A DNA stretch of 64,000 nt from Planctomycetota bacterium. GTDB taxonomy: Bacteria; Planctomycetota; Phycisphaerae; Phycisphaerales; UBA5793. The position numbers and the translations under genes were made by a program. Location: contig CAUJHZ010000025.1 in assembly GCA_963205185.1 (NCBI GenBank), positions 138,874 to 202,873 on the forward strand. Direction: 5' to 3'. Shown here one piece after another: positions 33,956 through 39,571 of this stretch. Below the pieces are notes generated by a model. It was not told the origin of the DNA, did no database searches, and saw only the letters and a program-made list of their open reading frames with translations. Numbering within the stretch: the stretch's first letter is position 1; each line of letters begins with the position of its first letter.

Positions 33956-35356
33956 TCAGTCCTTTCCGAAACTGATTGTTTCGCCTTCGCGCGGCATGGC
34001 GGGCCGGGCGTGGCGGCGTTTCTCGAGCGCATCGGCCAGCGCTTCCATCGAATCCTCTTCGCCGTGCACCAGCATCGTCTGCGGATTGCCTTTGGTGAAC
34101 GCGTCGTGCCAGCGGATGAGATCGGAGCGCCCGGCATGGGCCGAGAACCCGTTGATGGTGTGAATGGCCGCCTTGACGCTGACTTCCTCACCGTAGATGC
34201 GAACCGCTTTCGCCCCGTCCACGAGTTGTCGGCCCAGCGTGCCGCGCCCCTGGAACCCGACAAAGACGACGTGCGCTTCGGGGCGCCAGAGGTTGTGCCG
34301 GAGATGGTGCAGCACGCGGCCGCCGGTGCACATGCCGCTGGCGCTGATGATGATGGCCGGCCGCCTCAGTTCGTTGAGCGCCTTCGAATCCTCCACGCTG
34401 TGCGTGAAGTGCACGAAATCGAGATCGCACAGTTCGAAACCCTGCTCGATGAGTTCGAGCGTCTCTTCGTCAAAGAGCCCGGCGCTGCGGCAGTAGAGTC
34501 CGGTCGTGGTCAACGCCATCGGGCTGTCCACGTACACCTCCCGGAACGGCAGCCGCTTGTCCCGGTCAAGTTCGGCCAGCCGATAGAGCAGCGACTGCGT
34601 GCGCCCGACGGCAAACGCGGGGATGATGACGTGGCCGCCCGTTTCCGCTGCCTCATGCAGAACCCGCTCGAACTCCGCGAGCGTTTCCTCCCTGCTGCGA
34701 TGATCGCGGTCGCCGTAGGTCGATTCCATGACAACGGCGTGTGCATGGTCGAGTGTCTCCGGATCGCGGATGAGCGCCTGGCCGTCGGGTCCGATGTCTC
34801 CGGACATGACCAGCCGCCGCATGTTCCCGCCGCTGCCGATCTCGAATTCGGTAATGGCCGAACCGAGGATATGACCCGCATCGTGGAAGCGGAACTCGAT
34901 TTCGTCGAGAATCCGGCAGTCTTTCCAGTAGGGAACCGGCTTGAAGAGCGGGAACACCTTCTCGGCGTCCTGCGTCGTGTACATCGGCTCGACGGCGCTC
35001 TTGCCCTCGCGAGCCCGCCAGCGCGTCTCGCGCTCAGCGTCGGACTCCTGAATATGAGCCGCGTCGCGCAGGAGGATCTCGGTCAGCGCGACGGTGGCGG
35101 GAGTGGCGTAGATCGGCCCGGCGTATCCGGCCGCAGCCAGTTTGGGCAGCAGGCCGCAGTGATCGATGTGCGCGTGCGAGAGCACAACGGCGTCGAGTTG
35201 GCCGATGTCGAACTGAAAGCGGCGCCGGTTCTTCTTATCGGCTTCGAACGTCCCCTGGCGCATGCCGCAGTCAAAGAGCACCCGGCGATCCCGGTAGCGG
35301 ATCAGGAAGCACGAGCCCGTAACCTCGCGCGCAGCGCCGTAGAAGGTGATGTCCAT
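33956..35356 (-). CDS. Metallo-beta-lactamase / beta-CASP RNA nuclease
   Basis: A 466-residue MBL-fold nuclease of the bacterial CPSF73/Ysh1-like family. The N-terminal DITFYGAAREVTGSCFLI is diagnostic, then metal motif SHAHIDHCG (HxHxDH), FHDAGHILGSA and MSGDIGP. The beta-CASP part contains VVMESTYGDRDH, IIPAFAVGRTQ and ISASGMCTGGR, and the final histidine motif NGFSAHAGRSDL. The length is typical for the family. The start at 35356 gives the usual N terminus; an in-frame ATG at 35416 is possible. It is divergent from the ASCH-domain gene and convergent with RmlD. Confidence 0.93.
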   Translation of the reverse strand: MDITFYGAAREVTGSCFLIRYRDRRVLFDCGMRQGTFEADKKNRRRFQFDIGQLDAVVLSHAHIDHCGLLPKLAAAGYAGPIYATPATVALTEILLRDAAHIQESDAERETRWRAREGKSAVEPMYTTQDAEKVFPLFKPVPYWKDCRILDEIEFRFHDAGHILGSAITEFEIGSGGNMRRLVMSGDIGPDGQALIRDPETLDHAHAVVMESTYGDRDHRSREETLAEFERVLHEAAETGGHVIIPAFAVGRTQSLLYRLAELDRDKRLPFREVYVDSPMALTTTGLYCRSAGLFDEETLELIEQGFELCDLDFVHFTHSVEDSKALNELRRPAIIISASGMCTGGRVLHHLRHNLWRPEAHVVFVGFQGRGTLGRQLVDGAKAVRIYGEEVSVKAAIHTINGFSAHAGRSDLIRWHDAFTKGNPQTMLVHGEEDSMEALADALEKRRHARPAMPREGETISFGKD

Positions 35357-35472
35357 GACAATAGACGTAGCGGCTGCGCCCGCCGCGGGCAAGTGCGGGA
35401 CCGCTGAAGACTGCATCAGGTCGCCGTCCGGCGGGTTAGAATGATCGCGATCCCGGCCTGTGCGGAGTCGCG

Positions 35473-36258
35473 ATGATCCACGTCGCCATCCTTTACGAGA
35501 AGTACCTCCGCGCGATCCTCGAGGGCCGCAAGACCATCGAGATGCGCCTGACGCTCACCAATCGGGCGCCCTTCGAGGCGATCGAAGCCGGCGAGCGGTT
35601 GTATCTCAAGCGCTCGGGCGGTCCTTTCCGGGCGACGGCGATCGCGGATCACGTCATGTTCGTGCGCGACCTTTGTCCCAGCGACATCGCCCGCATCCGG
35701 CGCGATTACAACGAGTGGATCGGCGCTGACGGCGAGGCATGGAACGCGAGGAGACACGCCCGGTATGCCTCGCTGATCTGGCTGCGCGACGTGGAGCCGA
35801 TCCGCTTCGGGCCACGGATGAAGCCGCATCACGGCGTGGCGTGGCAATGCCTCCCGGAGCGCGAAGACGTCTATCCCGCGTGCCTCGAGACGCTGGCGCA
35901 CGCGCCTGCGGAATCAATCGGAGGCAGTGGCGCGGCCGACGAGATGCTCATTCCCATCACCGCCGCCAATATCCGCCATGGCCACATCTACCTCACCGGC
36001 CTGACCGATCGCTTTCCGGCCGCGTCGCTGGGCGGACGGACGCGCGCCGAGGCCGGCATACCGCTCACGCTTCGCTTCGCCCGCGGCGCCACGGTGCACA
36101 CCGACATCGTGCGGCATCGCAATATCTTCCGCAGCCGGGCGTGGCGCGCATGGTTCGCCGAGCACGGCGCGCAGGAGGGTGACCGGGTGTGCCTTCGGCC
36201 GCGCGGCGCCGGCGATTTCGATGTCACGCTGCGGCGCCGCGCCGGCGGGCGCGATTGA
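35473..36258 (+). CDS. ASCH-like domain fused to a B3-like DNA-binding barrel (predicted)
   Basis: 261 residues. The first 115 resemble the PUA-like ASCH fold: YEKYLRAILEGRKTIEMRL, with the conserved GRKTIE(M/V)R turn, and LYLKRSGGPFRATAIADHVMF. The C-terminal 110 residues read like a B3-type pseudobarrel: IPLTLRFARGATVHTDIV, RSRAWRAWFAEHGAQEGDRVCLRPRGAGDFDVTL, with the WxxFxxxHGxxxGDxV pattern. It may bind modified bases or a structured RNA/DNA site. GGAG lies 6 bases before the ATG. The B3 assignment is a pattern match by eye and needs a profile search. Confidence 0.7.
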   Translation: MIHVAILYEKYLRAILEGRKTIEMRLTLTNRAPFEAIEAGERLYLKRSGGPFRATAIADHVMFVRDLCPSDIARIRRDYNEWIGADGEAWNARRHARYASLIWLRDVEPIRFGPRMKPHHGVAWQCLPEREDVYPACLETLAHAPAESIGGSGAADEMLIPITAANIRHGHIYLTGLTDRFPAASLGGRTRAEAGIPLTLRFARGATVHTDIVRHRNIFRSRAWRAWFAEHGAQEGDRVCLRPRGAGDFDVTLRRRAGGRD

Positions 36259-36284: not shown

Positions 36285-37214
36285 ATGAGTGAGACGCTGC
36301 CGGACATCAACGCCATGCCCCTGGAGCAGGCGTTCCACGCGCTGAACTCCGCCGGGTCGCTGCGCACGCTCTTTCGCTTGGCGCGCGATGAAGATCTTGG
36401 CGCAATGGGCGATGTGACGACGCGAGCGCTGCTGCTGGGCGACGCGCGCGTTCAGGCACAGGTCGTCGCCCGACGGCCCGGCGTCATCTGCGGCTGGCGC
36501 GCCGTGCCCGCGCTGATCGACGCCTACACCAGTGCCTGCTCGGTCGATACCGTGATGCCCGATGGCGGCGAGATCGACACCGCCATCGCCGCAGGAATCG
36601 TCCGCGGGCCCCAGGAGGACCTGCTGGCGCTCGAGCGGCCGATGCTCAATCTTCTCTGCCATCTCAGCGGCATCGCAACGCTCACGCGGCGATTCGTTCG
36701 CGCCGTCAGCGCCACCGGCGCGCGCATCTTTGACACGCGCAAGACGATGCCGGGTTGGCGCGGGCTGGAGAAATACGCCGTGCGCTGCGGCGGCGGGTTC
36801 TGCCATCGCCTCGGCTTGTATGACGCTGTGCTTGTCAAGGACAATCACCTCGCCGCGGTCAATCCCTCGGAGTTGACGCTCTGGCTCAGCGAGCGCCTCG
36901 CCCAGGCCCGAGAGCAGTTTGCGCTGCGCTTCGTCGAAGTCGAGGTTGATTCGCTCGTGCAGTTGCGCGCGGTGCTGGCCTGCCCGCCGGGCATCGTCGA
37001 TGTCATCCTGCTCGACAACATGGCGCCGGCTGACATGCGCCGGGCGGTGGCGATGCGCGATGATCTCAACGAGAGTGTCGAACTCGAAGCATCGGGAGGA
37101 GTGACGCTGGACACCATCGGCGCGATCGCCGCCAGCGGAGTCGATCGCGTCGCCGTGGGCGCCTTGACGCATTCGGCTGCGCATCTCGATCTCGGCCTGG
37201 ATTTTCTGCCGTGA
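36285..37214 (+). CDS. nadC: Nicotinate-nucleotide pyrophosphorylase (carboxylating)
   Basis: 309 residues. It converts quinolinate and PRPP to nicotinate mononucleotide, CO2 and PPi in de novo NAD synthesis. Motifs are DLGAMGDVTTRA, ERPMLNLLCHLSGIAT, IFDTRKTMPGWRGLEKYAVRCGGGFCHR, LVKDNHLA, VDVILLDNM and LEASGGVTLDTI. The TGA overlaps the biotin ligase GTG by the GTGA arrangement, so nadC and birA are co-translated. There is an N-terminal extension of about 25 residues. nadA and nadB are not in the window. Confidence 0.96.
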   Translation: MSETLPDINAMPLEQAFHALNSAGSLRTLFRLARDEDLGAMGDVTTRALLLGDARVQAQVVARRPGVICGWRAVPALIDAYTSACSVDTVMPDGGEIDTAIAAGIVRGPQEDLLALERPMLNLLCHLSGIATLTRRFVRAVSATGARIFDTRKTMPGWRGLEKYAVRCGGGFCHRLGLYDAVLVKDNHLAAVNPSELTLWLSERLAQAREQFALRFVEVEVDSLVQLRAVLACPPGIVDVILLDNMAPADMRRAVAMRDDLNESVELEASGGVTLDTIGAIAASGVDRVAVGALTHSAAHLDLGLDFLP

Positions 37215-37972
37215 GTCAGAGCGCGCGGGAAGCTGATGCGGCGCGATGGCGCGAAGCGCTGACGCCGCTCATTCACGAGGCAGACTCGCTCGTCGATCGA
37301 ATCGTGGTGCTCGACGAAACACCTTCGACGCAGGATGAGTGTCGCCGGCTTGCCGATCGATCGGGGCTGCTCGTGACCGCGCTGCGGCAGACCGCCGGCC
37401 GCGGCCGGCTCGGCCGGCAATGGTCCGACGTTCGCGGCGAAGGTGTCGCGCTGACCATCGCCGTCGCCGCGCAATCGCCTGAGCGCCTCTCAATCGCATC
37501 GGCCATCGCCGTATGCGAGGCGGCCGAACACTTTGCCGGCCGAAGCTTGGGCATCCGCTGGCCCAACGACATCATGGCCGACAATCGCAAACTCGCGGGC
37601 ATCCTCATCGAGCAGTTCGGCCCGCTCGCACTGATTGGCATCGGCGTGAATGTGAACCAGGACGTCTGGCCTGAGAGCCTGGCAGAGATCGCCATCAGTC
37701 TGCGCGAGCTGTTGGATTCTCCCCAAGACCGAGTCGCGGTGATACACCGCGTCGTGAGCCAACTCGGCGACGCTCTCGGACGCGGTGATGATCGACTGAC
37801 TGCCGCGTTTCAGGATCGCGACATGCTTGCAGGCACCACGCAGCACTTCACCATCGGCCGCGAGCGCCTCACCGGCGTGGTGGAGCGGATTGATCCACTG
37901 CGGGGCATGTTGGTGCGGACGGCTGACGGCGAGCGCTTTCTGCCGGCGGCAACCACCTCCCTGGTGCGCTGA
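37211..37972 (+). CDS. birA: Biotin--[acetyl-CoA-carboxylase] ligase
   Basis: 253 residues from a GTG overlapping nadC. The catalytic domain shows DETPSTQDECRRL, TALRQTAGRGRLGRQWSD, IRWPNDIMADNRKLAGILIEQ and IGIGVNVNQD, so it makes biotinyl-AMP and biotinylates carboxylase or decarboxylase lysines. The C-terminal SH3-like domain is present (RERLTGVVERIDPLRGMLV). There is no N-terminal winged helix, so this is a monofunctional (class I) ligase without BioR/BirA-type repression. The next gene is convergent, with 3 bases between stops. Confidence 0.94.
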   Translation: MSQSAREADAARWREALTPLIHEADSLVDRIVVLDETPSTQDECRRLADRSGLLVTALRQTAGRGRLGRQWSDVRGEGVALTIAVAAQSPERLSIASAIAVCEAAEHFAGRSLGIRWPNDIMADNRKLAGILIEQFGPLALIGIGVNVNQDVWPESLAEIAISLRELLDSPQDRVAVIHRVVSQLGDALGRGDDRLTAAFQDRDMLAGTTQHFTIGRERLTGVVERIDPLRGMLVRTADGERFLPAATTSLVR

Positions 37973-37975
37973 TCG

Positions 37976-39571
37976 TCACGGGAACATGTGCATCACCACG
38001 TTCGATACCCTGCAATCGGCCCGCTCGAGCGCCTGCAGCAGCACGGTGCGGCCGGCCAGCCCGCCCGGCACGTTCGCGCTCAGTCGGGCGTTGCCGAAAC
38101 CATCGGCGACAGCCGTACCCGCAATCTGCACATTGCGAATGTTGATCACCACGCCGGGACAGCCGGGCACGGACATCGAGCCGCTGCTGAATCCATAGCC
38201 GAAATGAATGCGGTTGCCCGGCGCTGCGCCGTTCACGACAAGCGTGTTTCGCGCACCGGCGCTGCCGGGGTCGGGCGCCTGGAGCGTCAGCCCGCCGGAG
38301 ATGAGGTAGCACTTGCCCGCGCGAAATCCGTTGCTCGGGTTGTACGCGGCGGTCACAAAGAAGTCGAGACGACCGTCTTCGTCCACATCACCGATTCCAT
38401 GGGCGTCAAAGCCGAAGCCCTCGCCCGCCGTGGTGCTGGTGAAGGATCGGATGACCGCTCCGTCGGCGCCGGAGATGATGTCCGCCTTACCGGCGTTGAA
38501 GGCGCCTTCGTCGTTGACCCAGCCGCAGATGAGCAGATCAGCGCGGCCGTCGAAATTGACGTCGCCGCACCCGCGCCCGATGCCGTAGCCTTCGCCCGCT
38601 GCGGCGCCGGGGAGCGTGAGCAGGCGCGAACCATCGACGCCGCTGAAAACGTACGCCTTGCCCGTTCCGGTCCCATGCGTGTTGTCGCTGAAGTCGGCGA
38701 CGTAGAGATCACCGACGAGATCGCCATCGGTGTCGCCGACTCCCGCCACGAAGAATTGTCCGAAACCGACCGCCGTCGAATCGGGAATCATCTCGAATCG
38801 TCGCGTCTGCTCCTTCACGGAGAACAGGTAAGCCCGGCCGCGATTGCTCGGCCCCGCCGCGGGCGCTCCGACGATCAGATCGTCAAACCCATCGCCGGTG
38901 ACATCGCCGGCGTCGGCCGCGGAGTTGCCGAAGCGGTCGCCGGCATCCGCGCCGTCGATCGTCCACAGCACCGTCGCACCGTCGATCCCGGAGATGATGT
39001 ACACTCGGCCCGCATCGGCGCCACCTGCGTCATGCCCGTCAGCACCGACGGCAAGGTCATCGTGTCCGTCGCCGTTGATATCGCCGACGCCGCAGACCGT
39101 CGATCCGAAGCGATCTCCCGCCGAACCGATGCGGATGGAGTGAATGAGATGGCCGTCGGCGCCGGAGTAGACGTAGGCGCGCCCGATGCCGCCGGCGGCC
39201 GGCGCTCCCGAAATCACATCGTTGGTCCCGTCGTTGTCCACGTCGCCCGCGTCGCGCGCCGCGATTCCGTTCTGATCGCCGGCGACGCCATCCCAGCGGA
39301 ACATCTCTGCTCCGGACCGACCTGAATAGACGTAGACGCGTCCCGCGCCGGCCCCTCCTGCGGAATTGAACGGCGCCGTGACAATCACTTCGTCAGCGCC
39401 GTCACCGTCAACATCGAGCAGCGGCGCTGAAACCCAGCCAAACTGGTCGTTGGCTGCTTCACCCACAAACTGATGGATGAGGCGCGTGGACTCGACGAAC
39501 TGAGCCAACGTGGGCCGGCACGGGGCCGCCGCCACCATCAGCCCGATCGCGGGAACCAGAAAAAGTCGCAT
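37976..39571 (-). CDS. Secreted FG-GAP repeat protein with planctomycete C-terminal domain
   Basis: 531 residues. The signal peptide (LFLVPAIGLMVAAAPCRPTLA) is followed by six or seven FG-GAP/integrin-alpha units (LLDVDGDGADEVIVTAP, AGDVDNDGTNDVISGAP, VGDINGDGHDDLAVGA, AGDVTGDGFDDLIVGAP, GDVNFDGRADLLICG, IGDVDEDGRLDFFVTA), a predicted beta-propeller. Each has a Ca-binding DxDxDG loop. The last 95 residues (GSAGARNTLVVNGAAPGNRIHFGYG, VPGCPGVVINIRNVQIAGTAVAD, LLQALERADCRVSNVVMH) match the end of the HAF protein at 16606. A strong GGAGAGGAG lies 6 bases before the ATG. Probably extracellular; role unknown. Confidence 0.9.
   Translation of the reverse strand: MRLFLVPAIGLMVAAAPCRPTLAQFVESTRLIHQFVGEAANDQFGWVSAPLLDVDGDGADEVIVTAPFNSAGGAGAGRVYVYSGRSGAEMFRWDGVAGDQNGIAARDAGDVDNDGTNDVISGAPAAGGIGRAYVYSGADGHLIHSIRIGSAGDRFGSTVCGVGDINGDGHDDLAVGADGHDAGGADAGRVYIISGIDGATVLWTIDGADAGDRFGNSAADAGDVTGDGFDDLIVGAPAAGPSNRGRAYLFSVKEQTRRFEMIPDSTAVGFGQFFVAGVGDTDGDLVGDLYVADFSDNTHGTGTGKAYVFSGVDGSRLLTLPGAAAGEGYGIGRGCGDVNFDGRADLLICGWVNDEGAFNAGKADIISGADGAVIRSFTSTTAGEGFGFDAHGIGDVDEDGRLDFFVTAAYNPSNGFRAGKCYLISGGLTLQAPDPGSAGARNTLVVNGAAPGNRIHFGYGFSSGSMSVPGCPGVVINIRNVQIAGTAVADGFGNARLSANVPGGLAGRTVLLQALERADCRVSNVVMHMFP

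Follow-up and report, generated by a model that had tools for sequence, protein, structure and literature searches.

The protein described here joins an ASCH-like domain, a kind of domain with an RNA/nucleotide pocket, to a predicted plant-type B3 DNA-binding barrel. In one planctomycete order it would serve NadC as a dedicated partner, and most likely as a regulator of NAD synthesis that binds DNA, a reading for which we see belief and doubt evenly matched. Because its gene is almost always found immediately ahead of nadC, and in some genomes fused with it, the protein probably belongs to NAD synthesis, as a partner or regulator, rather than to the nuclease encoded on its other side in the window (the whole stretch of 64,000 nucleotides that was analysed). 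The open-access literature searched held no description of ASCH with B3 or of ASCH with NadC, and the protein is probably a partner or regulator of the pathway that has not been described before. Were this to hold, one more family of regulators would be known for an essential cofactor pathway, in bacteria whose control of NAD has been little described; a B3 domain would be seen at work outside plants and restriction systems, and the ASCH domain would gain a defined metabolic setting. Both the co-occurrence of the genes and their fusions make the idea of a NadC partner directly testable.

A conserved two-domain gene

The open reading frame runs from an ATG at 35473 to a stop codon that ends at 36258 and encodes 261 amino acids (Table 1). 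That it is a real gene, as the preliminary description had taken it to be, is borne out by its homologues, which were found in 38 of the 61 related genomes and are up to 88% identical over the full length. A search with the single sequence yields near full-length alignments for the homologues in families f1 and f4 and for most of those in f5; those of f6 align mainly over the first 130 residues, with both domains present by profile, and the f2 members examined consist of the N-terminal (ASCH) half only. An alignment of 20 full-length homologues has a mean column identity of 47% and 19 invariant residues; gapped, unconserved columns mark a variable linker between the two halves. Searches of phages and viral contigs for relatives returned none, and a search of the PDB with the single sequence gave no match.

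Table 1. Features of the window and of related loci (positions are those of the window unless a locus label is given)
Feature	Position	Strand	Basis
ASCH-B3 two-domain protein gene	35473..36258	+	ORF, homologues, alignment; heads predicted operon with nadC
ASCH-like domain, signature GRKTIEMR (residues 18-25)	residues ~1-130, 35473..35862	+	conservation, Pfam, profile-profile
Variable linker	residues ~131-155, 35863..35937	+	gapped, unconserved alignment columns
B3-like barrel, conserved R220-x-R222-x-W224 and G236-D237	residues ~156-255, 35938..36237	+	structure match to model, conservation
TAGAAT, -10-like element inside GTTAGAATG	35437..35442	+	upstream alignment
beta-CASP metallo-beta-lactamase nuclease	33956..35416	-	Pfam Beta-Casp, RMMBL, Lactamase_B; outside conserved unit
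nadC, quinolinate (nicotinate-nucleotide) phosphoribosyltransferase	36285..37214	+	TIGR00078 over cut-off at G000:C25:175260-176078
birA-like biotin ligase gene	37211..37972	+	overlaps nadC end; tblastn on relatives; less conserved
C5-cytosine DNA methyltransferase, N-terminal B3-like domain	L035:5406-6956 (G000:C61:145.9 kb)		own genome
ASCH-B3-NadC	L165:5165-6832		
ASCH-NadC	L161:4887-6224		
B3-NadC with frameshifted ASCH	L166:3276-5032		

The N-terminal half

To judge from its sequence, the N-terminal half is an ASCH domain, as had been suggested from the window alone. The ASCH octapeptide has been defined as G-x-K-x-x-[ETS]-x-R (PMC9599836), and in agreement with it G18, K20, E23 and R25 are invariant in all 20 aligned homologues. 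Eighteen of these match the Pfam ASCH family (PF04266) at E<=1, weakly, with a best value of 5e-5; the window protein scores 16.5 bits, under the curated cut-off of 21.2, and the relative L050 scores 24.4 bits, over it. Profile-profile comparison of this half with canonical planctomycete ASCH proteins gave a probability of 78%, against 0.2% for the B3 half, which served as a control with the same proteins. The AlphaFold model of the ASCH half alone is unreliable (pLDDT ~41).

The same signature is found in YqfB and ZmASCH, from which our protein differs in its additional C-terminal B3 domain and, where YqfB is concerned, in one catalytic position. The catalytic residues of the amidohydrolase YqfB are Lys21, Thr24, Arg26 and Glu74 (PMC9599836), and the position of the nucleophile Thr24 is taken by Glu23 in all ASCH-B3 homologues. 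The known amidohydrolase chemistry of ASCH proteins is therefore unlikely here, and identity as a YqfB-type amidohydrolase was rejected.

The C-terminal half and its methyltransferase relatives

The C-terminal half is, in the predicted structure, a B3 DNA-binding pseudobarrel, i.e., a seven-stranded open barrel, and on this point the preliminary description has held up well. Residues 152-260 of the AlphaFold model mostly have pLDDT values of 60-88, and a structure search with them returned B3, EcoRII-N or BfiI-like folds in all of the 27 best rows (Z 9.4 to 5.0; next 3.3). These matches comprise plant B3 domains, the N-domain of LlaJI.R1, BfiI, NgoAVII and EcoRII-N, and Foldseek agrees with a probability of up to 1.00. 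Weak profile matches to the family also include the plant B3 chains TEM1 and RAV1, and Pfam B3 (PF02362) has weak matches in 5 of the 20 aligned members (lowest E 0.0061) and none in the window protein. The motif by which the barrel had been recognised, given as WxxFxxHGxxxGDxV, is present but was slightly misquoted, the actual letters being W224-RAW-F228-AE-HG-AQE-GD-RV. The fold is shared with the known B3, EcoRII-N and BfiI-C pseudobarrels (Z up to 9.4), whereas here it is joined to an ASCH domain instead of to nuclease or plant AP2/ARF parts, at <20% identity. A restriction enzyme of the EcoRII/BfiI type was considered and rejected, the 261-residue product having no nuclease domain match and the nuclease neighbour not being conserved.

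Outside the family, the nearest sequence relatives of the B3 half are the N-terminal domains of C5-cytosine methyltransferases, one of them in the window's own genome (L035; Pfam DNA_methylase 2.4e-46) and three more elsewhere in the class and phylum (L141, L142 and L143). TDI and FRxRxW motifs are common to both groups, and R220 and R222, conserved in 95-97%, are mostly common to the methyltransferase domains as well. The B3 domain thus appears, from these sequences, to be related to the N terminus of certain DNA cytosine methyltransferases, although there it heads the protein and here it sits C-terminal to ASCH. When plasmids were searched with the B3 domain of the methyltransferases, the only two matches were in Bradyrhizobium. 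The presence of a B3 domain argues for DNA binding, and the conservation of R220 and R222 suggests that the barrel may bind double-stranded DNA in a sequence-specific manner.

These relatives also bring to mind a reader of modified DNA or a defence factor derived from a restriction-modification system, since they form the N termini of C5 DNA methyltransferases, with genes for Vsr and HNH proteins alongside (in L142). Moreover, ASCH domains have been seen together with HTH or HsdS, and binding of modified DNA has been proposed for them (PMC7641849). We consider such a role very unlikely, however, because the gene has a stable housekeeping context beside nadC and its conserved neighbourhood includes neither a nuclease nor a methyltransferase. 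Recognition of modified or structured nucleic acid, which the preliminary description had read from the pairing of the two folds, would be a conceivable property of the protein.

The divergent nuclease

The beta-CASP nuclease gene does lie divergently upstream, as described before; the distance of 116 bp given for it holds from an internal ATG, and from the first ATG it is 56 bp. The ASCH-B3 protein had been seen as a substrate-recognition partner of this nuclease, and a conserved neighbourhood in other planctomycetes had been named as the check. Within the window's genus the two genes are adjacent in four of five genomes (the window, L036, L031 and L033; not L032), which is what speaks for a partnership, but in none of the other families examined does the nuclease adjoin the ASCH-B3 gene. 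As the adjacency stops at the genus boundary, and is missing even from one genome within it (G004, the L032 locus), the partnership was rejected and retains hardly any credence.

Linkage to nadC

In the window nadC begins 26 bp after the ASCH-B3 gene on the same strand, and elsewhere the spacing is often <30 bp (6 bp in L048, a 4-bp overlap in L046); no terminator-like site was found between the two genes. Among the relatives in families f1, f4, f5 and f6 with a located nadC, 28 of 28 have it on the same strand, either immediately downstream or one gene further on. The same placement is seen in 23 of another 24 f6 genomes; in the remaining one the gene is at a contig edge. Pooled over these four families of the order, the arrangement is kept in 51 of the 52 genomes that have both an ASCH-B3-family gene and a located nadC, genomes that are mutually related and so do not count as independent observations. 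The same-strand cluster led by the ASCH-B3 gene spans >30 genera in the four families. In four f5 genomes ~1 kb separates the pair, a space that in L039 holds a TIM-barrel gene (Pfam) with a homologue in L042 and L045. The other neighbours change from family to family, with birA in f1 and f6 (the L046 copy matches Pfam BPL_LplA_LipB), AMMECR1 in f5 and lpxK-hldE upstream in f4, so the ASCH-B3/nadC pair is more conserved than its surroundings.

That the pair persists while everything around it turns over tells against simple operon hitchhiking, in which a general reader of nucleic acid (RNA or modified DNA) would have a promoter in common with nadC and no role in NAD metabolism. What makes this reading conceivable is that the linkage could descend from one ancestor and that relatives in other families lie elsewhere, often beside lpxK-hldE. 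In two f3 genomes with ASCH-B3 the gene follows lpxK-hldE and nadC is on another contig, and the ASCH-only gene of f2 is usually away from nadC, following an hldE-like gene in the loci read. On balance we think hitchhiking improbable. In G008 and G027, lpxK, hldE, the ASCH gene and nadC stand in one row, and we infer a simple history in which an ASCH gene close to lpxK-hldE acquired a B3 domain and came to be joined to nadC.

Five genomes carry B3-less forms beside or fused to nadC (G439, G478, G027, G521 and G540), three of which (G027, G521 and G540) are exceptions within f2 in that the ASCH-only gene precedes nadC. Since these forms stay with nadC, the tie of the protein to NadC does not come from the B3 domain. 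They lend some weight to a different kind of partner, in which the ASCH domain would assist NadC directly, through handling of substrate or product, allostery, a scaffolding role or catalysis of a step on a nucleotide intermediate, with B3 as an accessory tether that can be lost. ASCH is also the more conserved half in the alignment of 20, and there are ASCH proteins that work on nucleosides as small enzymes (PMC9599836). Nevertheless, the replacement of the YqfB nucleophile gives little reason to expect the known chemistry, and B3 is retained in most members of f1, f4, f5 and f6; we regard a partner led by ASCH as a minority possibility, and the most serious of the competitors to a DNA-binding regulator.

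Fusions with NadC

In three draft genomes the two genes are partly or wholly joined, the frames being taken as assembled. G457 encodes ASCH-B3-NadC in a single 556-aa frame with no stop, G478 an in-frame ASCH-NadC without B3, and G463 has B3-NadC in one frame with the ASCH part in a different frame. With 99/97 support, the G457 and G463 B3 domains group as sisters. The B3-NadC fusion is thus shared by two genomes from a single lineage, which makes a one-off assembly error an unlikely explanation. Possible internal NadC starts are a GTG in G457 and G478 and an ATG in G463. Altogether fusions occur in three genera, which again counts against hitchhiking. In seven other f6 genomes, however, a single stop separates the ASCH-B3 and NadC frames, which are in the same register; a read-through fusion could thus easily arise, and this moderates the argument. 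Taken together, the conserved linkage and the fusions indicate a functional tie of the protein to NadC, which we hold to be highly probable.

Upstream region and a model for regulation

In combination, the tie to NadC and the B3 domain suggest a regulator of NAD synthesis or a DNA-tethered partner of it. The element GTTAGAATG is conserved upstream of the ASCH-B3 gene in five genomes of the genus, and the alignment of these five upstream regions contains no palindrome or conserved operator beyond the -10-like TAGAAT. A generic consensus sigma-70 scan of the region found no promoter. An operator shared with nadA was rejected, no 6-8-mer being common to the upstream regions above shuffles. As an operator motif was not found and B3-less versions stay with nadC, regulation itself is something that we infer, and a DNA-binding regulator is a plausible mechanism that is at best evenly balanced.

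We tentatively propose the following mechanism. The B3 barrel would recognise a short stretch of double-stranded DNA, plausibly close to the promoter of its own cluster, and the ASCH pocket could bind a nucleotide-like ligand or nucleic acid, or contact NadC. Jointly, the two domains might make nadC expression, or the location or activity of NadC, depend on the state of the NAD pathway. Broadly, such a design would be analogous to NadR, in which HTH, NMN adenylyltransferase and ribosylnicotinamide kinase domains are found in one polypeptide, a DNA-binding domain thereby being tied to enzymes of NAD biosynthesis. Here, by contrast, the DNA-binding domain would be B3 instead of HTH and the enzyme NadC, the genes are usually separate and form a single polypeptide in few genomes only, and the regulatory role is putative.

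NiaR, reportedly a repressor of nadC in Streptococcus pneumoniae (PMC5343564), was found in none of the 61 relatives, and the winged helix of NrtR, missing from the window's own genome, is present in 12 and absent in 49 of them, which leaves room for another NAD regulator. The ASCH-B3 protein has no NCBIfam or Pfam match to the domains of NrtR (Nudix and WHD), NiaR (HTH and 3H) or NadR (HTH-NMNAT-kinase); with NrtR and NiaR it may have a role in common, although the domains are unrelated. It is a more speculative step, which we would not yet favour, that a plant-type, methyltransferase-related B3 domain, an ASCH sensor and NadC, in trans or in one chain, constitute a new class of bacterial NAD regulator that controls NAD synthesis in planctomycetes mostly without NrtR and NiaR.

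Other observations

ASCH genes directly after lpxK-hldE-like (heptose/lipid A) genes were also seen in other families of the order (L038:2833-5483, L049, L052, L140, L158 and L159). Divergent ASCH-only proteins are encoded in a different, possibly defence-like island (L139:827-1888 and L174:4244-6536); both genes adjoin a gene of ~418 aa, and that in L139 also adjoins a small P-loop (AAA_17-like) kinase. Downstream of the methyltransferases of L141, L142 and L143 are Vsr-like and other nuclease-like genes, a locus of restriction-modification type. In the window, a gene on the minus strand (37976-39571) that by eye encodes a secreted FG-GAP-repeat-like protein is convergent with birA.
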